Positions 3,891-59,048 of a stretch of DNA of 64,000 nt are shown one piece after another. The stretch covers positions 45,438 to 109,437 of the forward strand of contig JAFPZD010000107.1 in NCBI GenBank assembly GCA_017417465.1. Direction: 5' to 3'. The translations under genes and the position numbers were made by a program. This DNA comes from Prevotella sp. (GTDB taxonomy: Bacteria > Bacteroidota > Bacteroidia > Bacteroidales > Bacteroidaceae). The first letter of the stretch is position 1. Each line of letters begins with the position of its first letter. The notes beneath the pieces are model-generated. The model did not search any database and was not told where the DNA came from. It saw only the letters and a list, made by a program, of their open reading frames with translations.

Positions 3891-4008
3891 CACGAAGCTT
3901 CTGTCGGCCTTAGCGACCATCAGGCCGCTACGAGAACTCTCCATGAGAGTGCCGCGTAAAAGGGTTGCAAGCCCCCCATTTTTGATATGGATGGCGGCAG
4001 TAAAAGTT

Positions 4009-4092
4009 AAAACTGCGCCAACGTTTGATAAAACTGCGCCTTTGTTTGATAAAACTGCGTCAGTGTTTGATAAAACTGCGCCTTTGTTTGCT
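4009..4092. repeat. Four 21-bp tandem repeats
   Basis: Four copies of AAAACTGCGCCnnnGTTTGAT, exactly 21 bases apart, differing mainly in the three-base centre (AAC, TTT, AGT, TTT). They sit in the gap of about 700 bases after lptB. The rest of 3891-4167 shows no gene; a weak CGGCCT/AGGCCG hairpin near 3905 lacks a T run. Confidence 0.85.
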
Positions 4093-23654: not shown

Positions 23655-24680
23655 ATGAACGAGAACACTCAACTCACGATGAAGGACATCGCCCGCGAAC
23701 TGGGTATTTCGGTGGCTACTGTCTCAAGGGCACTGAAGGATTCGCCACGCATCTCGGCCGAGCAGCGCAAGCGCATCCAAGACTATGCCCGCGCTCACAA
23801 CTTCACGCCAAACCTCATTGCCGAGTCGCTGCGCCACTCCAAGGTGCAGCCTATGAAGGTCATCGGCGTCATCGTGCCTGAACTGGTCCACTACTACTTC
23901 GCCTCGATCCTCAAAGGCATCGAGGAGGAGGCCGAGGCCCACGGCTACCGTGTGATGGTGGGACAGAGTGGCGAGCAGTACGAGCGCGAGGTGAAGCTCT
24001 GCCGCTCGTTCTACGAGAACAAGGTCTGCGGCATCATCGTCTCACAAGCCAAGGACACGCTGCAGTACGACCACTTCAAGCAGCTCATCGCCTCAGGCGT
24101 GCCACTGGTGTTCTACGACCGCATCTGCACAGGCGTCAACGCCAGCCGCGTCGTCGTCGACGACTACATGGGCGCCTTCAACGCCGTGACCTACCTCATC
24201 AACACTGGGTGCAGGCACATCGCCTTCTACGGACTGCCCATGCACCTTGAGATTGCCAAGAACCGCTTCAACGGCTATAAGGACGCGCTGCTGAAGCACG
24301 GCCTACGCTACGACGAGCGTCTGGTGCGCATCTGCGACAACCGCGACGATGCTGAGGTCATCACGCCTGAGCTGTTCAACGACGAGCCATACCCTGATGC
24401 GTTCTTCGCCGTCAACGACGACACGGCCATCGGCATCCTCTACACTGTCAAGCGCATGGGTCTCCGCGTGCCTGACGACATCTCCATCTGCGGATTCACC
24501 AACGGCGAGCGTGCCATCGCCTGCGACCCCATGCTCACCACCGTCGAGCAGCGCGGCCTGCGCGTCGGCGAGGAGGCCGCCAACATCCTCATCAGCCAAG
24601 TCGAGGGCACACTGCCCCACGACCGCATCGAGCGCCGCATCGTGCGCACACGGCTCATCATCCGCGGAACGACGCGGTGA
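23655..24680 (+). CDS. LacI-family transcriptional regulator of the starch locus
   Basis: 341 residues. N-terminal LacI helix-turn-helix (MKDIARELGISVATVSRALK, about residues 10-29) and hinge helix, then a periplasmic-binding-protein-like sensor domain. The DNA contact sequence (VATVSRAL) fits recognition of a palindrome with central CG, as found in the promoter gap. It is divergent from susC and upstream of an MFS sugar transporter, so it probably controls both according to a sugar effector, most likely maltose or an oligosaccharide. The start ATG is 23 bases after the -7 box. Confidence 0.9.
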   Translation: MNENTQLTMKDIARELGISVATVSRALKDSPRISAEQRKRIQDYARAHNFTPNLIAESLRHSKVQPMKVIGVIVPELVHYYFASILKGIEEEAEAHGYRVMVGQSGEQYEREVKLCRSFYENKVCGIIVSQAKDTLQYDHFKQLIASGVPLVFYDRICTGVNASRVVVDDYMGAFNAVTYLINTGCRHIAFYGLPMHLEIAKNRFNGYKDALLKHGLRYDERLVRICDNRDDAEVITPELFNDEPYPDAFFAVNDDTAIGILYTVKRMGLRVPDDISICGFTNGERAIACDPMLTTVEQRGLRVGEEAANILISQVEGTLPHDRIERRIVRTRLIIRGTTR

Positions 24681-24683
24681 TTG

Positions 24684-24951
24684 GCATCGGTTGGGTTGGG
24701 GGGCATTGGTTTGACACGGTTTTGACACGGTTGAGTGGTGGGAAGCATCGGTTTGACACGGTTTTGACACGGTTGGGTTGGGAGGAGCATCGGTTTGACA
24801 CGGTTTTAACACGGTTGGGTGTTGGGAGAAGCATCGGTTTAACACGGTTTTAACACGGTTGAGTGGTGGGAAGCATCGGTTTGACACGGTTTTGACACGG
24901 TTGGGTGTTGGGAGGAGCATCGGTTTGACACGGTTTGACACGGTTTGGCGG
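24684..24951. repeat. Left array of GCATCGGTTTGACACGGTT words (inverted relative to the right array)
   Basis: Starting right after the regulator stop, about seven degenerate copies of a unit of roughly 40 bases: GCATCGGTTTGACACGG then TTTTGACACGGTT then a G/T-rich joint. The complementary words form a second array on the other side of the GxxExxY gene. No variable spacers are present, so it is not a CRISPR array. It makes up most of a 334-base gap; the remaining AT-rich part (24952-25014) just precedes the next gene. Confidence 0.9.
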
Positions 24952-25014
24952 TGTAAGAAGGAATAAAATAATAAAATAGAACAATATATATAAGAAAGGA
25001 ATACTTTAGTTGTT

Positions 25015-25407
25015 ATGCTTTTATATCAGGAATTGTCTGACAAGGTTCTAAGAGCCTACAACAACGTGCAGAATGCATTAGGTAAAGGACTTGCTGAAAA
25101 AGTCTATGAGAATGCACTTTGCATAGAATTCGACCAGATGGGGCTGTCGTATGAGAGACAGAAGCCTTTGCAGGTCGAATACAAAGGTCATATCGTAGGA
25201 AACTACGTGGCTGATTTCATGATAGAAGGAAAAATCATTATCGAGCTAAAAGCTGCCGTTTCAATCACCCCTGAACATATTGCACAAACCCTTAACTATA
25301 TCAATCTGACTCATTGCAAAGTAGGCTATATTCTAAATTTCACTCAACAGACAGGCCCTGGTTATAAACGTCTTCTTGGCTTAGCCGCAAGATGTGAAGA
25401 CCAATAG
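25015..25407 (+). CDS. GxxExxY protein, PD-(D/E)XK nuclease-like
   Basis: 130 residues. The family-naming motif is GLAEKVY (Gly25, Glu28, Tyr31). A PD-(D/E)XK-like core follows: ADF (Asp67), then IIELKA (Glu77, Lys79), and a C-terminal strand-helix ending FTQQTGPGYKRLL. These residues are the expected metal-binding and catalytic set, although activity of GxxExxY proteins has not, to my knowledge, been shown. It is markedly more AT-rich than its neighbours. It lies between the LacI-type regulator and the MFS transporter, flanked by inverted arrays of one repeat family, which suggests insertion into a formerly continuous regulator-transporter pair. Confidence 0.85.
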   Translation: MLLYQELSDKVLRAYNNVQNALGKGLAEKVYENALCIEFDQMGLSYERQKPLQVEYKGHIVGNYVADFMIEGKIIIELKAAVSITPEHIAQTLNYINLTHCKVGYILNFTQQTGPGYKRLLGLAARCEDQ

Positions 25408-25410
25408 CAC

Positions 25411-25615
25411 CCCAAACCGTGTCAAACCATATAAACCGTGTCAAACCGTGTTAAACCGATGCCACACCAAACCGTGTCAAACCGTGTTAAACCGATGCCA
25501 CAACCAACCGTGTCAAACCGTGTTAAACCGATGCCACAACCAACCGTGTCAAACCGTGTTAAAACGATGCCACAACCAAACCGATGCCACAACCAAACCG
25601 ATGCCACAAACTAAC
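25411..25615. repeat. Right array of AACCGTGT / AACCGATGCCACA words
   Basis: About six copies of a 36-37-base unit, AACCGTGTCAAACCGTGTT then AAACCGATGCCACA, shortening to a 16-18-base unit at the end. It is the reverse complement of the left array family at 24684-24951 and stops about 15 bases before the MFS start codon. Confidence 0.9.
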
Positions 25616-25631
25616 CCCAAAATAACCGAAT

Positions 25632-26942
25632 ATGAAAACAAAACCGAATTTGTCTTTCTGGAAGCTCTGGAACCTGAGCTTCGGATTTTTCGGAGTGCAG
25701 ATCGCCTATGCACTCCAGAGTGCTAACATCTCGCGTATATTCCGCACGCTTGGAGCCGACCCCCACGACCTGAGCTTCTTCTGGATCCTGCCGCCCCTTA
25801 TGGGCATGCTCGTGCAGCCCATCGTCGGCACCCTCAGCGACAAGACGTGGATGCGCTTCGGCCGTCGCATTCCCTACCTCTTCATCGGAGCCGCCGTTGC
25901 CGTCGCCGTCATGTGCCTGCTGCCCAATGCCGGCTCGCTGGGGCTGGCCACCGTTGGCGCCGTGCTCCTCGTGGGCACCATCCTGCTGATGCTCCTCGAC
26001 ACGAGCATCAACATGGCCATGCAGCCCTTCAAGATGCTCGTCGGCGACATGGTCAACGAGGAGCAGAAGGCCAAGGCCTACAGCATCCAGTCGTTCCTCT
26101 GCAATGCAGGCAGCGTCGTGGGCTTCGCCTTCCCCTTCTTCTTCGCAGCCATCGGCCTGAGCAACATCGCCCCTGAGGGCATCGTCCCTGACACCGTCAT
26201 CTGGTCGTTCTACATCGGCGCCGCCATCCTCATCCTCTGCGTCATCTACACCGTCATGAAGGTCAAGGAGTGGCCGCCGAAGGAGTACGAGGAGTACAAC
26301 GGCGTGGCCGAGGAGACGAAGGACTCAGGCAGCGCTAACTGGTTCGTGCTGCTGAAGAACGCCCCTGCCACCTTCTGGCGCGTCGGCCTCGTGCAGTTCT
26401 TCTGCTGGTCAGCATTCCTCTACATGTGGACCTACGTCGTCGACGCCGTGTCGCTCACCGTTTGGAACACCGACGAGCCCACCAGCGAGGCCTACCAGGT
26501 CGCTGGCAACTGGACGGGCATCCTCTACGCCATCCAGGCCATGGCCTCCGTATGCTGGGCCCTCGTGCTGCCACGCTTCAGCAACACCAAGGTGGCCTAT
26601 GCCGTCAGCCTGCTCATTGGTGGTGTGGGCTTCGCCCTCGTCCCCTACTGCGGCGGTCAGTATCTGCAGATCATCCCCTTCGTGCTCATCGGCTGTGCAT
26701 GGGCAGCCATGCTCGCCATGCCTTTCACCTTCGTCACCAACGCCCTGCAGGGCTACGGCCATATGGGAGCCTACCTCGGCCTGTTCAACTGCACCATCTG
26801 CCTGCCCCAGATCGTCGCCGCCCTCTGTGGTGGTCTCATCATGCGTGCCATCGGTGGTACTCAGGCCACGATGATGATTGTCGCCGGCCTGCTGCTCATC
26901 GTTGGTGCCTGCTGCGTCTTCGGCATCAAGGGACGGCGATAG
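25632..26942 (+). CDS. MFS sugar (probably maltose/malto-oligosaccharide) transporter
   Basis: 436 residues with about 12 hydrophobic segments. It has the GPH/SLC45-like signatures GMLVQPIVGTLSDKTWMRFG(RR) at the 2-3 loop and MQPFKMLVGDMVNEEQK. This family carries disaccharides or oligosaccharides across the inner membrane with a proton. In Bacteroidales, close relatives are found in starch loci, and its position next to susCDEF and a LacI regulator supports transport of maltose or maltodextrin from periplasm to cytoplasm. Substrate is inferred from context only. Confidence 0.85.
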   Translation: MKTKPNLSFWKLWNLSFGFFGVQIAYALQSANISRIFRTLGADPHDLSFFWILPPLMGMLVQPIVGTLSDKTWMRFGRRIPYLFIGAAVAVAVMCLLPNAGSLGLATVGAVLLVGTILLMLLDTSINMAMQPFKMLVGDMVNEEQKAKAYSIQSFLCNAGSVVGFAFPFFFAAIGLSNIAPEGIVPDTVIWSFYIGAAILILCVIYTVMKVKEWPPKEYEEYNGVAEETKDSGSANWFVLLKNAPATFWRVGLVQFFCWSAFLYMWTYVVDAVSLTVWNTDEPTSEAYQVAGNWTGILYAIQAMASVCWALVLPRFSNTKVAYAVSLLIGGVGFALVPYCGGQYLQIIPFVLIGCAWAAMLAMPFTFVTNALQGYGHMGAYLGLFNCTICLPQIVAALCGGLIMRAIGGTQATMMIVAGLLLIVGACCVFGIKGRR

Positions 26943-35444: not shown

Positions 35445-35544
35445 AATTCCCGAGATTCACAGTCTAATTCCCGAGATTCATAGTCTAATTCCCGAGATTC
35501 ACAGTTTAATTCCCGAGATTCATAGTTTAACTCCCGAGATTCAA
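35445..35544. repeat. Five 22-bp tandem repeats (CCCGAGATTCA)
   Basis: Five copies of TAATTCCCGAGATTCACAGT, 22 bases apart. The joint alternates CACAG/CATAG and drifts from TCTA to TTTA along the array. This lies in the 909-base gap between the Omp28-type gene and rlpA. No gene is seen in the gap; 35143-35444 is AT-rich and holds nothing recognisable. Confidence 0.88.
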
Positions 35545-35576: not shown

Positions 35577-35750
35577 ATATACGGTTTTCATGTCGTAAGT
35601 ATACGGTTTTCATGTCGTAAGTATGCCGTTTACATGTCGTAAGTATGCCGTTTACATGTCGTAAGTATGCCATTTACATGTCGTAAGTATGCCATTTACA
35701 AGTCGTAAGTATGCCATTTACAAGTCGTAAACCTATGACTTACGTATTAG
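35577..35750. repeat. Seven 22-bp tandem repeats (TGTCGTAAGTATGCC)
   Basis: Seven copies of a 22-base unit, ATGTCGTAAGTATGCCGTTT and variants. The variable part changes stepwise from ACGGTTTTCAT to GCCGTTTACAT to GCCATTTACAT to GCCATTTACAA. It lies 30 bases after a second, unrelated array of the same period. From 35751 to 35962 there is nothing recognisable. Confidence 0.88.
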
Positions 35751-39245: not shown

Positions 39246-40550
39246 TTACTTAAATCGGTAGCCGAGGAGCAGCTGTGCGCAGTCGGCCTTCGCAAAGCGG
39301 TGGGCCTTGATGTTATAGCCTACGAAGAGGCGGTCGCGGGTGAAGGGGAAGGCATAGCGCAGGCCGATGTTCTGGAAGAATCGTCCGTCCTCAGTGCGTC
39401 CCAAGAATCCCGTCTGCTTGTGCAGGTAGACGCCAGCTCCCACGGCGAGCGAGAAGTGGTGGTAGTAGAGCTCGTGGCGCAGGCTGAGGCCAAGGATGTG
39501 AGGCGAATAGCGCTCGTCGTGGCGCCCCAGCTTCTGGTCAAGGTCGCGATGGCTATAGACGTAGTCGGCGTAGGTGTAGTCGATGGCCACGCCACTGGCA
39601 TGCATGCGATGATAGCGATACATGGGGGCCACCATCGTGGCAAAAAAGCCGTAGAGGGGGCAGTGGTTGGCGTGGTAGACATTGAAATGGTCGAGCAGCG
39701 ACTTCATGCCGAAGGCCGCCGTTACTTCCACGAAGGGTCCTTTCTTGATTTCGGGAATTTCCGGATATTCTGGGTTTTCCGGATAATCTGGATTTTCCGG
39801 ATTAATCGGATTATCCGGCTTGCTCTTCCCTCCAAAGTCATACTGCACGGTCAGCGACGGTCCGATGGTGTTCACGCCCAGGTTGGGGCGTTTCAGCGAG
39901 CCATTGCTGAAATGCTTGAAGTCGACACCCAGCACGGTGCTCCACGTTGGTGACAGCCGATAGCGGGCATAGAAGCCGATATTGACAAAGATAGACAGCG
40001 GTGCGCCTATCAGCTCATTGTCGATGTTCGTATGGGCATCGAAGGGGTGCGGACAGTAGCCCACGCCATTCTGCAGGTCAACGCCGAGGTTCCATCGCTG
40101 GCGCCTGACCACATCGTACTGCACACCGCCATAGAGCGCCCAGAGGCTGCCAATACGCGACTCGTAAGGCGTAGTGCCCTTGTGCATGTGGATATGGCTG
40201 AAGTCGCCGTAGAGAAGACCAGCCTGCAGCGTTGGGCGGTTCAGCCCCTTTTCGTAAGGGTCGTTGTCGGCAGCGTCGGCCTGCCATTTCGCCCGCAGCT
40301 CGTACATGCTCGTGCCATAGCTATGGAGGATGGCTCCTGCATACGGCCCCTTCGGAATCAGATAGCTCATGTTGGCAATGGCACCCAGCGACCAGTGCCC
40401 GTGATGCTGGGCTGGCGAGGCAGCATCGGCGACCGTGTCGGCGTCGGCCACCAAGCCAGAATCGACGTCGTTGGCAAAACTCTGCATAACTGTTAGTAGC
40501 ATCAGCATTGCCAGTGTGCCATGCAGAAAGTATCTATTTATGCTTCTCAT
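39246..40550 (-). CDS. PagL-like (lipid A 3-O-deacylase family) outer membrane protein
   Basis: About 434 residues from the ATG at 40550; an upstream TTG at 40577 lies in the promoter and is excluded. Signal peptide LAMLMLLTVMQSFA. A large beta-barrel domain follows, with VDFKHFSNGSLKRPNLGVN, which matches the His-Ser motif of PagL deacylases (HFSNx5NxG). A tandem linker (PENPDYPENPEYPEIPEI) at about residues 255-275 splits the protein; a second barrel-like part (PFVEVTAAFGMKSLLDHF to the C-terminal LLLGYRFK) follows. PagL removes a fatty acid from lipid A. The two-part arrangement is about 2-3 times the length of PagL, so the catalytic role is inferred. Confidence 0.75.
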   Translation of the reverse strand: MRSINRYFLHGTLAMLMLLTVMQSFANDVDSGLVADADTVADAASPAQHHGHWSLGAIANMSYLIPKGPYAGAILHSYGTSMYELRAKWQADAADNDPYEKGLNRPTLQAGLLYGDFSHIHMHKGTTPYESRIGSLWALYGGVQYDVVRRQRWNLGVDLQNGVGYCPHPFDAHTNIDNELIGAPLSIFVNIGFYARYRLSPTWSTVLGVDFKHFSNGSLKRPNLGVNTIGPSLTVQYDFGGKSKPDNPINPENPDYPENPEYPEIPEIKKGPFVEVTAAFGMKSLLDHFNVYHANHCPLYGFFATMVAPMYRYHRMHASGVAIDYTYADYVYSHRDLDQKLGRHDERYSPHILGLSLRHELYYHHFSLAVGAGVYLHKQTGFLGRTEDGRFFQNIGLRYAFPFTRDRLFVGYNIKAHRFAKADCAQLLLGYRFK

Positions 40551-40878: not shown

Positions 40879-40972
40879 TACTTTTGTTCGCTGAAAGCAA
40901 ATAATAAATAAATAGTAAATACAATCTAATCGTAAATAAATCGTAAATCGTAAATTGTCAAATAGTAAATTA
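40879..40972 (+). promoter_or_regulatory. aqpZ promoter and AAATAGTAAATCGT word array
   Basis: TACTTTTG (40879-40886) is the likely -7 box of aqpZ. The leader (40899-40972) is a degenerate array of AAATAGTAAAT and AATCGTAAAT words ending 27 bases before the ATG. Confidence 0.6.
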
Positions 40973-41814: not shown

Positions 41815-43155
41815 ATGAAGAAACTAATCATCTTACTGACGGCTGTTTGCGCCACCCATGCAGCAACAGCCCAGAAACAGTGGACACTGGAAGACTGCAT
41901 TAGCTACGCGCTGCAGAACAACATCACCCTCCAGAAAGCAAAGCTCCAACAGTTGTCGGCCGCCGAGGACCTGAAAGGTTCGCAAGCCGCCCTGCTGCCA
42001 TCGATGTCGGCAGGCAGCAATCAGAGCATCGGCTATAGCCCGTGGAAGGATGCCGGCATTGCCACTGTCACCAACGGCCAGGTGAACTCGAAGGTAAACA
42101 AGAGCTACTACAATGGCTCCTACTCGGTCAATGCCCAGTGGACCGTCTGGAATGGCAACCGCAACCATAATAACATAAAGGTCAACGCGTTAGCCGAGCA
42201 ACAGGCAGAGTTGACCGCTGCTGAGACGGCCAACTCCATACAGGAGCGCATCGCCCAGCTCTACGTACAATGCCTCTACCTGAACGAGGCCATCAAGGTA
42301 AGCCAGTCGAGCCTCGAGACCAGCCGCAAAAACGAGGAACGCGGCCAGCAGATGGTCGAAGTGGGCAAAATGTCGAAAGCCGACCTCTCGCAGCTCACGG
42401 CCCAGCGTGCCACCGACGAATACAACGTTGTGGAGGCGCAGAGTCAGTTGGCCAACTATAAGCTTCAGCTGAAGCAACAACTCGAACTGACCGATGGCGA
42501 GGCATTCGACATCGCCGTGCCGCCAACCACCGATGAGCAGGCCCTCGCCGATATTCCTGCCCTGCAGGACGTCTATGAGCAGGCCCTGCTTGGCCGCCCA
42601 GAGATCGAGAGCTCACGGCTTGCCATCGAGAGCAGCAAGCTCAACCTGTCGATTGCCAAGGCGGGAAGACTGCCGACGATCAACTTGTCAGGAGGCTTCG
42701 GCACCAGCACCAACTCACTGTCGTCGAACAGCTGGGGCACGCAGATGAAGACCAACTTCGACATGTCAGGCGGCCTGTCACTTAGCATCCCCATCTTCGA
42801 CCAGCGACAGACGAAGACGGCTGTCAGCAAAGCGCGCATCCAGCAGCAGCAAGCCCTGCTCGACCTTCAGGACAAGCAGAAACAGCTCTATCAGACCATC
42901 GAGGGCTATTGGCTCGACGCACATACCAACCAGCAGAAGTTCCGTGCTGCCCAGCTGTCGGTGGATAGCGAGCAGCAGAGCTACGACCTGCTCTCAGAGC
43001 AATTCCGCTTAGGTCTGAAGAACATCGTAGAACTGATGACTGGCAAGGACAAACTGCTGCAAGCACAGCAGAACCGTCTGCAGTCGAAATACATGACCAT
43101 CCTGAACCGCCAGCTGCTGCTATTCTACAAAGGCTCAGTCGTCACCAAAGAGTGA
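41815..43155 (+). CDS. TolC-family outer membrane efflux protein
   Basis: About 446 residues from the ATG at 41815 (MKKLIILLTAVCA). Signal peptide ends AATAQ. Two outer-membrane-efflux (OEP) repeats of coiled-coil helices and strands follow: LEDCISYALQNNITLQKAKLQ at the first and DIPALQDVYEQALLGRPEIE at the second. It forms a trimeric channel across the outer membrane, and is the exit duct for the MacA-MacB pump encoded next. The upstream in-frame ATG at 41743 lies before the promoter and is not used. A short-word array fills the gap to macA. Confidence 0.92.
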   Translation: MKKLIILLTAVCATHAATAQKQWTLEDCISYALQNNITLQKAKLQQLSAAEDLKGSQAALLPSMSAGSNQSIGYSPWKDAGIATVTNGQVNSKVNKSYYNGSYSVNAQWTVWNGNRNHNNIKVNALAEQQAELTAAETANSIQERIAQLYVQCLYLNEAIKVSQSSLETSRKNEERGQQMVEVGKMSKADLSQLTAQRATDEYNVVEAQSQLANYKLQLKQQLELTDGEAFDIAVPPTTDEQALADIPALQDVYEQALLGRPEIESSRLAIESSKLNLSIAKAGRLPTINLSGGFGTSTNSLSSNSWGTQMKTNFDMSGGLSLSIPIFDQRQTKTAVSKARIQQQQALLDLQDKQKQLYQTIEGYWLDAHTNQQKFRAAQLSVDSEQQSYDLLSEQFRLGLKNIVELMTGKDKLLQAQQNRLQSKYMTILNRQLLLFYKGSVVTKE

Positions 43156-43157
43156 AA

Positions 43158-43210
43158 TAATAAATCGTGAAATAGTAAATAGTGAAATAGTCAAATAGTA
43201 AATCGTCAAA
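43158..43210. repeat. AAATAGTAAATCGT word array before macA
   Basis: Five degenerate copies of AAATAGTnAAAT and AAATCGTnAAAT words between the TolC-family gene and macA, ending directly at the macA ATG. Confidence 0.7.
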
Positions 43211-43211
43211 T

Positions 43212-44411
43212 ATGAAAGGGTTGTTAAATAAAAAGTTGTTGGCCTGCCTGGTAGGAATTATAGCTTGTGTGGCCGTGGTCGCCTTCATCGTGTCAGGCGG
43301 CAAGAAGAAAGAAACCGTTTCATTTCAAACGGCACGTGTTGAACGTGGGAATATCCAGAACAGTATCACCGCTACGGGCACCATCGAGCCAGTGACCAGC
43401 GTCACCGTTGGTACGCAGGTGTCAGGTATCGTGTCGCGACTCTATGTCGACTACAATTCTGTCGTGAAGAAGGGGCAGGTCATCGCTGAGCTCGACCGCA
43501 CCAACCTCATCAGCGAGCTCAACGCCCAAAAGGCCAGTCTCTCGACGGCACAGAGCCAGCTGAACTACCAAGAGGCCAATCACAACAGATACAAGACCCT
43601 CTACGAGAAGGGACTGGTCAGCGCCGATGAGTACGAGAATGCACGCCTCACCTGGCAGCAAGCCAAAAACCAGGTAGCCACAGCCCGTGAGAGCGTGCAG
43701 CGCGCCCAGACGAACCTAGGCTATGCCACCATCACCAGCCCCATCGACGGTGTCGTGCTCTACAAGGCTGTGGAGGAGGGTCAGACCGTCGCTGCCTCGT
43801 TCAACACCCCTGAGCTGTTTACCATTGCCAAAGACCTCACCGACATGCGCGTCATAGCCGATATCGACGAAGCCGACATTGGTGGCGTGAAGGAGGGACA
43901 GCGTGTGTCGTTCACCGTCGACGCATTCCCTGACGACCATTTTGAGGGGCGTGTGACGCAGGTGCGCCAACAGGCCACCACTGAGAGTAACGTCGTGACC
44001 TACGAGGTGGTTATCTCAGCCCCCAACAACGACCTGAAGCTGAAGCCAGGCCTGACGGCTAACGTCACCATCTTCACACTTGAGAAGAACGACGTGTTGA
44101 CAGTGCCAGCAAAGGCCCTGCGCTTCATGCCCGTCGAGGCCATCCTCGACAAGGGTCAGACCATCGCCGACGTGGAAGCTCCACAGAAAGTATGGACACT
44201 GGAAGGCAACACCTTCAAGGCTTACGCCGTGGAGACAGGCACCACCAACGGTCTGATGACTGAGATCGTCAGCGGCATTGCCGAAGGCACTGAGGTGCTC
44301 ACCGACTTCGAGATCAGCGGTGGCGATATGCCTCAGAACGAGCAGGCTGGCAACCCATTCATGCCAAGGCCAAGAGGAAACAGGAACCAGCAAAATCAAC
44401 AGAAGAAGTAA
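43212..44411 (+). CDS. MacA-like periplasmic adaptor protein
   Basis: 399 residues. A single N-terminal membrane anchor (ACLVGIIACVAVVAFIVSGG) precedes a membrane-fusion fold. The biotinyl-lipoyl-like half motifs are TATGTIEPVTSVTVGTQVSG and ITSPIDGVVLYKAVEEGQTV. A coiled-coil hairpin lies between them and a beta-barrel after. It bridges MacB to the TolC-type channel. Its stop overlaps the ATPase start by one base. Confidence 0.92.
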   Translation: MKGLLNKKLLACLVGIIACVAVVAFIVSGGKKKETVSFQTARVERGNIQNSITATGTIEPVTSVTVGTQVSGIVSRLYVDYNSVVKKGQVIAELDRTNLISELNAQKASLSTAQSQLNYQEANHNRYKTLYEKGLVSADEYENARLTWQQAKNQVATARESVQRAQTNLGYATITSPIDGVVLYKAVEEGQTVAASFNTPELFTIAKDLTDMRVIADIDEADIGGVKEGQRVSFTVDAFPDDHFEGRVTQVRQQATTESNVVTYEVVISAPNNDLKLKPGLTANVTIFTLEKNDVLTVPAKALRFMPVEAILDKGQTIADVEAPQKVWTLEGNTFKAYAVETGTTNGLMTEIVSGIAEGTEVLTDFEISGGDMPQNEQAGNPFMPRPRGNRNQQNQQKK

Positions 44412-56892: not shown

Positions 56893-58062
56893 ATGAACAA
56901 CAATAAGAGACTACTCACCGTCGCCGCCAGCTGCCTCGCAGCCATTGCCGCTACCTACGCCGACGACGACAAGCTGACAACATTCAACCCCGTGGAGCAT
57001 GCCGTCATCTCACAGACGATTGCTCCCGATGCCCGCTCGGCAGGTATGGGCGATGTGGGCGCAGCCACCGACCCTGACGTCAACTCGCAGGCTTGGAACC
57101 TGGCAAAGTACCCCTTCTGCATCAGCCGCGCTGGCGTGGCACTCAACTACACCCCGTGGCTCCGCCAGCTGGTGAACGACATCGACCTGGCCTATCTCGC
57201 AGGCTACTACCGCATCGGTGAGCGTGGTGCGCTCAGCGGCTCGCTGCGCTACTTCTCGCTCGGCGAAGTCTACACCAGTGATGCCTACGACATGACGGTT
57301 CGCCCCTATGAGATGTCGCTCGATGCAGCCTACTCGATGATGCTCAGCGAGACGTTCTCGTTCGGCGTTGGCCTGCGCTGGATTTACAGCGACCTGCGCT
57401 ACGACTATAGCGAGGACTCCAAACCAGCCTCTGCCTTCGCAGCCGACATTGCCATGTACTACAACAACTACGTGATGATGGGCAACCGCGAGTGCCAGTT
57501 AGGTCTGGGTGCCGTCCTTTCGAACATGGGTAGTAAGATCTCCTATTATGGCGACGAGGAGAGCCAGTTCATTCCTGCCAACCTGCGTCTGGGTGCCTCG
57601 CTGATGATTCCTGTCGACGAGTACAACCGCTTCAGCATCTCGGCCGATGCCAACAAGCTGTTGGTGCCCACCGTGCCTTTGCAGGAGGTCGACGAGACGA
57701 ATAGCGACTATCAGGACCGTGTGCGTAAAGAGTACAGTGATATCGGCTCCATCAACGGCATGTTCAAGAGCTTCAGCGATGCCCCCGGTGGTTTCAAGGA
57801 GGAGCTCGAGGAGGTACAGTGGAGCGTCGGTGCCGAATATGTCTACCACGACCAGTTCTCACTGCGTGCCGGCTATCACCATGAGTCAGAGTCAAAAGGT
57901 AACCGCAAGTACTTCACCGTTGGTGGCGGCTTCCGCATGAGTGTCTTCTCGCTCGATGTGGGCTATGTCATCTCCACTGCCCAAAGCAACCCACTCGACC
58001 AGACGCTGCGCTTCACCCTGTCGTTCGACATGGATGGCATCAAGGATCTGTTCCGTAAGTAA
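56893..58062 (+). CDS. porV: Type IX secretion outer membrane protein PorV
   Basis: 389 residues. Signal peptide (SCLAAIAATYA), then a FadL/OMPP1-like beta-barrel with the PorV/LptO family signature VISQTIAPDARSAGMGDVG and AATDPDVNSQAWNLAKYPF. C-terminal strand ends in FTLSFDMDGIKDLFRK. PorV collects cargo from the secretion channel and presents it to PorU. It follows the porU pair by about 30 bases. Its TAA stop is the first three bases of the left inverted repeat of the DUF559 element. Confidence 0.93.
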   Translation: MNNNKRLLTVAASCLAAIAATYADDDKLTTFNPVEHAVISQTIAPDARSAGMGDVGAATDPDVNSQAWNLAKYPFCISRAGVALNYTPWLRQLVNDIDLAYLAGYYRIGERGALSGSLRYFSLGEVYTSDAYDMTVRPYEMSLDAAYSMMLSETFSFGVGLRWIYSDLRYDYSEDSKPASAFAADIAMYYNNYVMMGNRECQLGLGAVLSNMGSKISYYGDEESQFIPANLRLGASLMIPVDEYNRFSISADANKLLVPTVPLQEVDETNSDYQDRVRKEYSDIGSINGMFKSFSDAPGGFKEELEEVQWSVGAEYVYHDQFSLRAGYHHESESKGNRKYFTVGGGFRMSVFSLDVGYVISTAQSNPLDQTLRFTLSFDMDGIKDLFRK

Positions 58063-58559
58063 CCCACCCCCTTCCCCTCCCCAAGGGAGGGGAGTTTGAT
58101 TAGAAAAGAGCAATGAAATATAAATTTGAAACAACTGACGCTTCGACTTACCAGCTATTGTTGGATAAGGCACGAGAGATGAGGAATCATCCCACCGAGG
58201 CAGAAAGCGCATTGTGGAATTATCTTTCTGGTGATAAGATGGGGGTGCACTTTCGTCGGCAACATCCCGTCTTTGGCTATATTCCCGACTTTATCGCCTT
58301 GAAGGAACAACTTATTATTGAAATAGACGGCGGCTATCATTTTGAGGGGGAGCAACCAGACGTTGATGCCCAACGCACTCAATGGCTCAATAAAGCTGGG
58401 TATCTCGTCTTACGTTTTACCAATGAAGAGGTGCTATGCGATATTGACAATGTGCTTGAACAAATCGCAGATACTTTGAACTCTATCCACATCCAACCAA
58501 CTTCCGCCTCCAAGACTAACCAAGCTCCCCTCCCTTGGGGAGGGGCTGGGGGTGGGTTA
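58060..58559. mobile_element. DUF559 element bounded by 38-bp inverted repeats
   Basis: The left repeat (58060-58097, from TAACCCACCCCC to AGGGGAGTTT) and the right repeat (58522-58559) are reverse complements with three mismatches over 38 bases. Each contains the palindrome CTCCCCTTGGGGAGGGG type. Between them lies one DUF559 reading frame. The same unit occurs without a gene at 872-964, and a fragment (GGGGGTGGGTTA) after dinB at 60186-60199. The left end overlaps the porV stop and the right end runs into codon about 2-3 of ispF. No target-site duplication is clear. Confidence 0.75.
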
Positions 58560-59048
58560 CGAGTTGGATTCGGATTCGACGTGCATCAGTTGGTTCCTGA
58601 CCGCGAGCTGTGGATAGGGGGCATCAAGATTGAGCACACCTTAGGACTCCTCGGCCACAGCGATGCCGATGTGCTCATCCATGCCATCTGCGATGCTCTG
58701 CTCGGAGCCGCCAACATGCGCGATATTGGCTATCACTTTCCCGACACCTCCGACGAGACGCTCGGCATGGACAGCAAGATTATTCTGCGTAAGAGCATTG
58801 AACTGATTGCTACGAAAGGCTATCGGCTGGGGAATATCGATGCAACCATCTGTGCCGAACGGCCCAAGATGAATCCACACATCCCTGAGATGCAACGCGT
58901 CATGGCCGATGTCATCGGCTGCGACCCCGATCAGATTTCCATCAAAGCCACTACCACAGAGCGGCTGGGCTTCACTGGTCGGCAGGAGGGCATTGCTGCC
59001 TACGCCACAGTCTTATTAGAGAAGCAGGACACTCCCAACAACTCCTAA
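58113..59048 (+). CDS. ispF: DUF559 nuclease-like domain fused in frame to IspF (2-C-methyl-D-erythritol 2,4-cyclodiphosphate synthase)
   Basis: 311 residues in one frame. Residues 1-125 are DUF559, a Vsr-like PD-(D/E)XK family: AESALWNYL, IPDF (Asp59), IIEIDGGYH (Glu70, Asp72). Residues 126-149 are the translated repeat (APLPWGGAGGG). IspF starts at Arg150: RVGFGFDVHQL (metal ligands Asp156 and His158), then GHSDADVLIHA and ATTTERLGFTGRQEGIAAYA. IspF forms the cyclodiphosphate in the non-mevalonate isoprenoid pathway. No ATG, GTG or TTG lies in frame between the linker and Arg150 (nearest upstream TTG is at 58476), so IspF has lost its own start. Processing or internal initiation is unknown. 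Confidence 0.85.
   Translation: MKYKFETTDASTYQLLLDKAREMRNHPTEAESALWNYLSGDKMGVHFRRQHPVFGYIPDFIALKEQLIIEIDGGYHFEGEQPDVDAQRTQWLNKAGYLVLRFTNEEVLCDIDNVLEQIADTLNSIHIQPTSASKTNQAPLPWGGAGGGLRVGFGFDVHQLVPDRELWIGGIKIEHTLGLLGHSDADVLIHAICDALLGAANMRDIGYHFPDTSDETLGMDSKIILRKSIELIATKGYRLGNIDATICAERPKMNPHIPEMQRVMADVIGCDPDQISIKATTTERLGFTGRQEGIAAYATVLLEKQDTPNNS

Follow-up and report, generated by a model that had tools for sequence, protein, structure and literature searches.

Why does a small nuclease-like gene stand between two inverted arrays of one repeat, in the junction of a regulator gene and a transporter gene? The question is raised by a locus in a stretch of 64,000 nucleotides (nt) from Prevotella sp. 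(contig JAFPZD010000107.1), which is called the window here in its full length. At positions 25015 (ATG start codon) to 25407 on the + strand, the window carries a gene for a GxxExxY protein of 130 amino acids, enclosed by a left array (24688 to 24953, + strand) and a right array (25413 to 25613, - strand) that is its reverse complement. The reading that we favour, with a probability of roughly 55%, is that of an iteron-ended nuclease element: one GxxExxY gene of the PD-(D/E)XK type between inverted iteron ends, with the encoded nuclease acting on these ends. It is favoured because four things come together: a nuclease site that is intact and under selection, iteron ends that match each other, units with the same ends but no gene, and junctions that lack the gene. 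Most of the relatives examined, from many bacterial phyla, have this layout, which points to a minimal DNA element that spreads by itself and is of a kind not described so far.

The locus and its arrays

The left array consists of about six units of 42 to 44 nt, each with the consensus GCATCGGTTTGACACGGTTTTGACACGGTT and a spacer, and with a few variant letters. Such a unit is in turn made up of about three iterons of 10 to 11 base pairs (bp), CATCGGTTTG ACACGGTTTTG ACACGGTT, and then the spacer, while the right array comprises four 36-nt units and 17-nt tail units. With at most two mismatches allowed, a 19-nt core, GCATCGGTTTGACACGGTT, occurs ten times in the window: six times on the + strand, always to the left of the gene, and four times on the - strand, always to its right. 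It has 0 occurrences in 100 dinucleotide shuffles. The mutual reverse complementarity of the array words, claimed in a preliminary description of the locus, is thereby confirmed, and the span given there (24684 to 25615) is correct to within a few bases. The gene was also rightly described as AT-rich, its G+C content being 0.41 versus 0.61 in both neighbours. It does separate a LacI-family regulator gene (23655 to 24680, + strand; open reading frame (ORF) with PF00356 and PF13377) from a gene for a transporter of the major facilitator superfamily (MFS; 25632 to 26942, + strand; ORF and Pfam). Both neighbours are host genes, the regulator gene lying outside the element.

Inverted flanks in many phyla

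The layout recurs beyond this locus. At least one GxxExxY match is present in 130 of 200 genomes of the genus and in 74 of 148 genomes of the phylum, and the genome of the window itself contains six such genes. To compare the flanks, the 250 nt ahead of each gene were matched locally to the reverse complement of the 250 nt that follow it; the best match gave the score, to which a cut of 15 was applied throughout. Seven of the 208 genes were excluded for flanks shorter than 200 nt. Scores of at least 15 were obtained for 76 of 93 genes of the genus (from loci L001 to L095, which are high-scoring hidden Markov model matches and not a random sample, 35 of them supplied directly by the searches and 60 chosen by hand from a longer list), for 57 of 79 named GTDB loci from many phyla (the 80 named loci being the best matches to a query from one subclade, A2) and for 21 of 29 genes of other Bacteroidota. 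The total is 154 of 201, in which, as in the totals of 208 and 209, loci L206, L207 and L215 are double-counted, since they are probably the same contigs as L016, L031 and L017. Among control ORFs of the same named loci, 4 of 93 reached the cut. When the cut is raised to 20, there remain 58 genes of the genus, 44 named GTDB loci and 8 genes of other Bacteroidota, against one control. The survey of GxxExxY genes elsewhere, which had been proposed as a refuting test, therefore upholds the initial observation.

Bacteroidota and at least eight further phyla are represented among the loci above the cut, which belong to Bacteroidota, Cyanobacteria, Planctomycetes, Verrucomicrobia, Lentisphaera, Gammaproteobacteria, Acidobacteria, Chloroflexi, Hydrogenedentota and Ignavibacteria, and their usual ends are ACCACAGAGACACAGAGGCACAGAG ... 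CTCTGTGCCTCTGTGTCTCTGTGGT. As a separate observation, locus L027 (genome G086) holds a tandem pair of GxxExxY copies that are 99.5% identical and separated by a 90-nt spacer.

It could be argued that Prevotella has repeat-rich intergenic DNA, and that the gene lies among repeats by chance and by sampling. Other gene-less arrays in the window and in relatives would fit such an artefact, which is hardly credible in view of the control ORFs. The same holds for mismatched pairs of flanks: in the genus, the median score is 22.4 for the two flanks of one gene and 9.6 for flanks of different loci. A score above the 99th percentile of 475 mismatched-locus pairs is reached by 63 of the 95 genes of the genus in the inverted orientation and by 31 in the direct one, and the pattern is also found in other phyla. 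Chance was therefore refuted as an explanation.

Structure of the ends

The basic end is smaller than the arrays of the window. Iteron triples that pass a shuffle test are found upstream of 57 of 96 genes, downstream of 63 and on both sides of 46; on either side, about 5% would be expected. A stricter pairing, in which 132 of 208 genes were dropped on a period or identity cut, gives clean triples on both sides of 76 genes, with periods of 8 (43 genes), 9 (31) or 10 bp (2). The cores of these iterons are CRCNRAG in the 8-mers and CRCNGA in the 9-mers, or CRCNRA overall, with the rotation picked by motif, so that the logos are biased towards it. The iterons are directional and not palindromic. 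Beside the gene they run forward-gene-reverse in 65 of the 76 cases and reverse-gene-forward in 4, while 7 are unclear. The basic end is thus a tandem of about three iterons of 8 to 10 bp, of which the long arrays in the window are expanded copies. Both of these insights, as well as the dispersed gene-less copies and the third protein family treated below, were out of sight for the preliminary description.

Five relatives of the window protein, with 66 to 78% identity (G141, G034, G092, G032 and G140), all adjoin the same MFS gene. It had been considered that relatives might all carry the gene in this place with decayed repeats; instead, four of the five carry inverted repeats, two of them of the ACACGGTT kind and two made of other units, and none were seen in G032. 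G092 has one triple on each side, G034 has 4+3 units, and the other units are those of G141 and G140. As the ends of these relatives vary from a single triple over 4+3 units to none, the long arrays of the window represent one state of a fast-changing end. Another GxxExxY gene (G136:C217:4090-4419), of a different subfamily and 35% identical to that of the window, lies about 140 nt ahead of an MFS match; it was left out of the tree discussed below.

The repeats follow the protein. Array similarity tracks protein similarity with r=0.396 over 732 pairs from 39 loci, the highest of 2000 permutations being 0.293 (a Mantel test from which the mutA-mutB loci were excluded, together with 11 loci whose polarity is opposite or unclear, L003 of the window being one of these). 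This correlation suggests that a gene and its ends form one unit; it stops short of proving recognition, because shared descent would give the same result. Unit period and protein type are not significantly related (r=0.093, p=0.054).

A quite different view of the inverted ends is that they form a stem in the operon transcript, kept for the processing of RNA. Intervening sequences of 23S ribosomal RNA (rRNA) are small units with a single small ORF, coding for the S23 four-helix-bundle protein, and with flanking inverted repeats. The same layout is found for the four-helix-bundle family, and the bias in gene orientation reported below would also agree with such a stem. The view is nevertheless very unlikely, and it was rejected as the main explanation. 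Mismatches between left and right that are compatible with G-U pairing are not in excess over incompatible ones (68 versus 71 and 218 versus 249; p=0.165), and an Rfam search of window positions 24600 to 25700 gave no match at E<=0.1. Moreover, the units stand in tandem, every one of them is conserved individually, and the effect of register is small: left and right units agree to 0.847 in register and to 0.818 in random order, the highest of 2000 shuffles being 0.835. The present locus also differs from the rRNA intervening sequences in its location at a protein-gene junction, in its protein and in having no signature of an RNA stem.

The protein

The window protein matches PF13366 (PDDEXK_3; 128.4 bits, cut-off 22), its sole Pfam match, and, over the full domain, TIGR04256 (GxxExxY; 127.3 bits, cut-off 35). 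It shares the conserved residues of this family over its full length: G25, E28 and Y31 of the name-giving motif, and D67, E77-x-K79 and Q91xxxY95, the latter three sets being conserved in the family alignment. The nuclease residues Asp67, Glu77 and Lys79 stand at the positions first claimed for them. The D and E/D-x-K residues are intact in 206 of 209 proteins (some rows being duplicates), and the ratio of nonsynonymous to synonymous substitution rates (dN/dS) is 0.04 to 0.15 in six pairs, of which three come from one trio and are not independent. These sequence comparisons indicate purifying selection on an intact active site.

The pattern of D, E-x-K and Q-xxx-Y resembles that of Cas4/RecB nucleases. 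A profile search of the PDB gave nothing significant; T7 endonuclease I, Cas4 and others appeared at E values of 0.26 to 0.96 and are to be regarded as leads. With about 130 amino acids and no other domain, the protein is unlike Cas4/RecB-like nucleases, and no link to CRISPR turned up, no search having been aimed at one. In one study (PMC8934634), the pipeline reported a GxxExxY domain at a place that a second tool assigned to cas4. In the open-access full texts searched, which did not extend to preprints, no description was found of the function or the flanking repeats of GxxExxY (TIGR04256, PF13366), nor of DUF559 with repeats; combined terms and six repeat strings led to no description either.

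Gene-less units and their dispersal

Iteron ends also occur without a gene. The triple CRCRGANNNCRCRGANNNCRCRGA, here called the CRCRGA triple, has 462 matches in 100 genomes of the genus, versus 14 for the reversed pattern. It is found in 43 of 65 genomes with a GxxExxY gene and in 10 of the 35 that lack one (Fisher p=0.0004), where weak matches to the gene (G008, G024) count as presence. Among 149 of the matches (the 150 places listed out of 462, minus one overlapping hit), neighbours at most 250 nt apart are arranged forward-reverse in 28 cases, reverse-forward in 0 and in the same direction in 6. In G045, a single-contig genome, six gene-less units with loops of about 20 to 50 nt share the ends of the unit that bears one of its GxxExxY genes; a seventh has one imperfect end, and an eighth pair is made of other units.

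The repeat of the window itself, with at most three mismatches, is present in 10 of 150 genomes of the genus, where the reversed pattern has 2 matches in all. There are 83 matches in its own genome, 76 in G034 and 1 to 4 in each of eight others, and the two richest genomes both hold the cognate gene. No decayed gene is evident within two pairs of the own genome (L387 and L389), whose ORF lists, inspected by eye, contain no recognisable GxxExxY-like frame.

Two paralogous loci of G138 differ at the edges of the iterons. Their genes are 99.5 to 99.7% identical, and their flanks are partly similar, with 87 to 93% identity in the longer matched pieces. L025 is arranged forward-gene-reverse. L038 has kept the outer ends of L025, and an extra segment on each side completes a gene-less forward-loop-reverse unit between the end and the gene. 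L024 (G098) is arranged like L038, and both segments are absent from L025. The nested gene-less units at L024 and L038 account for two of the four polarity exceptions, as loci with normal outer ends. A move of the gene alone into repeats of opposite polarity, which had been entertained for L025 and L038, was rejected because the alignment shows paralogy and two nested gene-less units in L038.

Insertion sites and inheritance

Two junctions were followed in relatives, with 30 LacI-MFS and 30 mutB loci taken as the best matches of the respective searches. At the LacI-MFS junction, the GxxExxY gene is present in 3 loci (the window's own, G034 and G141) and a four-helix-bundle gene in 1. The other 26 hold neither, and in them the MFS gene follows 8 to 258 nt after the LacI gene, so that junctions without the gene do exist. 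At the mutA-mutB junction, with methylmalonyl-CoA mutase on both sides (Pfam, L141), 27 of 29 resolved cases are empty, one holds GxxExxY and one a four-helix-bundle gene. Different families use the same target junctions.

Simple ORF calls gave 51 clusters of upstream neighbours among 93 genes of the genus set and 52 of downstream neighbours among 89. By the same calls, the gene is co-directed with both neighbours in 145 of the 177 genes for which neighbours were found on both sides, and against both in 5; 31 of the 208 genes could not be judged.

The strongest rival of the favoured reading, itself unlikely, is homing into empty alleles. A homing-type nuclease would cut the empty operon junction, or a gene-less iteron unit, and recombination with an allele that holds the gene would then copy it in; the repeats would serve as homology and not as the ends of a transposing unit. 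A nuclease-type domain as the sole Pfam match would suit such an enzyme, as would the many alleles without the gene and the distribution of lineages over sites. In a quick tree, the residents of three sites, korA-korB, LacI-MFS and mutA-mutB, each form one lineage with respect to the other site groups (support 90, 99 and 76), and a fourth neighbour group needs two changes; this tree has 213 rows (208 different) and 130 columns, many of its forks are unresolved, and rows outside the site groups may fall inside those lineages. At the probable korA-korB site, the Pfam domains on the two sides are POR_N and TPP_enzyme_C in L068. One lineage at each of three sites argues for descent with loss as the common course and for jumps as a minority. 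The correlation of mutB identity with GxxExxY identity at their shared site (rho 0.40) does not tell descent and transfer apart. The dispersed and uniform gene-less iteron units, however, are left unexplained if the gene alone is homing, and the 51 upstream contexts also speak against this rival. Furthermore, the repeats at one site differ by species, with left and right still matching, and L038 contains nested units that its paralogue L025 lacks.

Several observations weigh against a self-spreading element. Single lineages occupy three of the four recurrent sites tested. No target-site duplication was seen by eye at filled and empty mutA-mutB and LacI-MFS junctions or in the G045 flanks; with such short gaps in the empty junctions and such distant species, the former comparison could not have revealed one. 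Pfam recognised no known transposase domain (DDE, HUH, serine or tyrosine) in the window protein. Movement of the element is deduced from sequence comparison, none having been observed. Of the GxxExxY genes scored, 47 of 201 lie under the cut. The CRCRGA triple is absent from 22 of 65 gene-bearing genomes and present in 10 of 35 gene-free ones. The window repeat is scarce in other carriers of the cognate gene (G092 4, G141 1, G140 0, G032 0), three of these having inverted repeats of their own and G032 none that were seen. In the own genome, its 83 matches lie on 26 contigs in 36 clusters that are mainly one-direction tandem arrays: of 44 neighbour pairs at most 250 nt apart, 42 (35 + 7) run in the same direction, one is forward-reverse and one reverse-forward. 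Finally, the two protein queries hit 7 and 8 of 72,556 plasmid records and 0 of 50,697 phages, distant family members being beyond the reach of the queries. Few plasmid and no phage records suggest that the element is not mainly borne by such vehicles. Two plasmid loci, inspected for strain-level polymorphism, were of no use in this respect.

The scarcity on plasmids, the absence from the phage collection and the one-direction arrays in the own genome would equally suit a chromosomal nuclease adopted by the host for repair, recombination or defence. The iterons would then be operators or binding sites, and the repeats would have spread by slippage, recombination or another route. Purifying selection and the frequent co-direction with both neighbours could be read in the same way. 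Such an adoption is quite unlikely, since the presence of the gene is patchy (130 of 200 genus genomes), with gene-free junctions and varied neighbours, and inverted ends to the left and to the right of the gene are more than autoregulation needs.

Known systems and parallel families

The element seems to be closest in outline to systems of another enzymatic type. As described in one study (PMC3116915), repetitive extragenic palindromic (REP) sequences and their inverted doublets (REPINs) accompany genes for REP-associated tyrosine transposases (RAYTs), which are flanked by inverted copies of the short repeat. Doublets of this kind that lack a gene and have a short spacer are dispersed between genes, and the repeat family is tied to the protein type. 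The present element has in common with these a gene between inverted repeats, dispersed gene-less inverted doublets and a repeat type that follows the protein type. It differs in that its enzyme is of the PD-(D/E)XK type and not a tyrosine (HUH) transposase, no HUH/Y1 domain being found in the window protein, and in that its ends are not palindromic REPs, each being built of some three directional iterons of 8 to 10 bp in tandem. Doublets of the REPIN kind were found for the CRCRGA triple and the G045 units, whereas the window's own repeat mostly forms one-direction arrays. With insertion sequences and miniature inverted-repeat transposable elements it shares terminal inverted repeats, short gene-less derivatives and junctions without the element; unlike these it has iterated ends, no known transposase and no target-site duplication that was seen. 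It is also unlike a homing endonuclease element in an intron, an intein or a conserved gene, the LacI-MFS and mutA-mutB copies lying between genes.

Two other protein families show the same arrangement. For the four-helix-bundle family (PF05635) of the same genus, inverted flanks with scores of at least 15 are present in 22 of 24 loci with full flanks, out of 30 fetched (L345 to L374). This share exceeds that of GxxExxY, and the ends are often iterated, several of them resembling AGGAGTTNN. For DUF559 (PF04480), also in the same genus, the association is weaker, with 14 of 26 full-flank loci out of 30 fetched. Its small gene, like that of GxxExxY, lies between inverted repeats, but these are of the CCCCTCCC/GGGAGGGG type. 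The parallel originally drawn with a DUF559 element of different family and repeat holds: in the window, a DUF559 domain (about 58062 to 58558; ORF 58113 to 59048) stands between inverted ACCCACCCCC..CCCCTCCC and GGGAGGGG..GGGTGGGTT, and the open frame that contains it also encodes a YgbB-family (ispF) domain. With 22 of 24 and 14 of 26 loci having inverted flanks, the layout is thus common to three unrelated families.

Some further repeats may be mentioned beside these families. At L100 and L141, four-helix-bundle genes (PF05635) occupy the LacI-MFS and mutA-mutB junctions that hold GxxExxY in other species, and the gene at L141 is flanked by units like TAAATCGTAAATAGT. Arrays of the TAAATCGTAAATAGT type are found in the window directly ahead of two genes (40909 to 40971 and 43146 to 43217). 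A gene-less array of CCCACCCCCTACCCCTCCC units at 873 to 958 resembles those adjoining DUF559 genes in the genus, and L104, a LacI-MFS junction, contains a gene-less inverted pair of the long TTATGCCCCCTAAGTTAGGGGGCTGGGGGTC repeat round a short loop, similar to the repeats next to a DUF559 gene (L318). Additional tandem arrays of the window have no recognised partner gene: 4008 to 4090 (21-nt units), 35445 to 35543 (21), 35584 to 35730 (22) and 39749 to 39818 (9/18).

A possible mechanism and its meaning

Returning to the iteron-ended nuclease element, a course of events can be proposed. Each end would provide about three tandem sites of 8 to 10 bp for the GxxExxY protein. The nuclease would recognise its own iterons at both ends and cut or nick there, after which repair or replication would copy the iteron-bounded units elsewhere, and gene-less units with the same ends might be copied in trans. 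Persistence would be chiefly by descent at operon junctions, where the element would be transcribed with the host operon, and jumps would be occasional. In the window, the ends would have grown by expansion to about six units on one side and four to five on the other. The sequences themselves show the inverted ends and their generality, the dispersed gene-less units, the match of repeat and protein, purifying selection on the active site and the empty sites; iteron binding, cutting, pairing of the ends and copying, as well as any effect on the host, are inferred.

At somewhat less than even odds, and hence tentatively, GxxExxY, the S23-like four-helix bundle and DUF559 small unrelated families that are without a clear function in databases, could be regarded as proteins of an undescribed class of minimal bacterial elements, each recognising its own inverted and mostly iterated ends, living in operon junctions and spreading gene-less units. 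If true, this three-family class would account for many short repeats between genes, for example CTCTGTGTCTCTGTG, that surround these genes across phyla. The favoured reading gives a concrete and testable role to a family present in well over half of the genus genomes and in half of those of the phylum, and offers a likely maker for a common type of short repeat between genes. Since protein and repeat similarity co-vary across natural elements, specificity may be read from them and tested directly. If a spreading element does rely on a PD-(D/E)XK nuclease as its one enzyme, the mechanism would be new.
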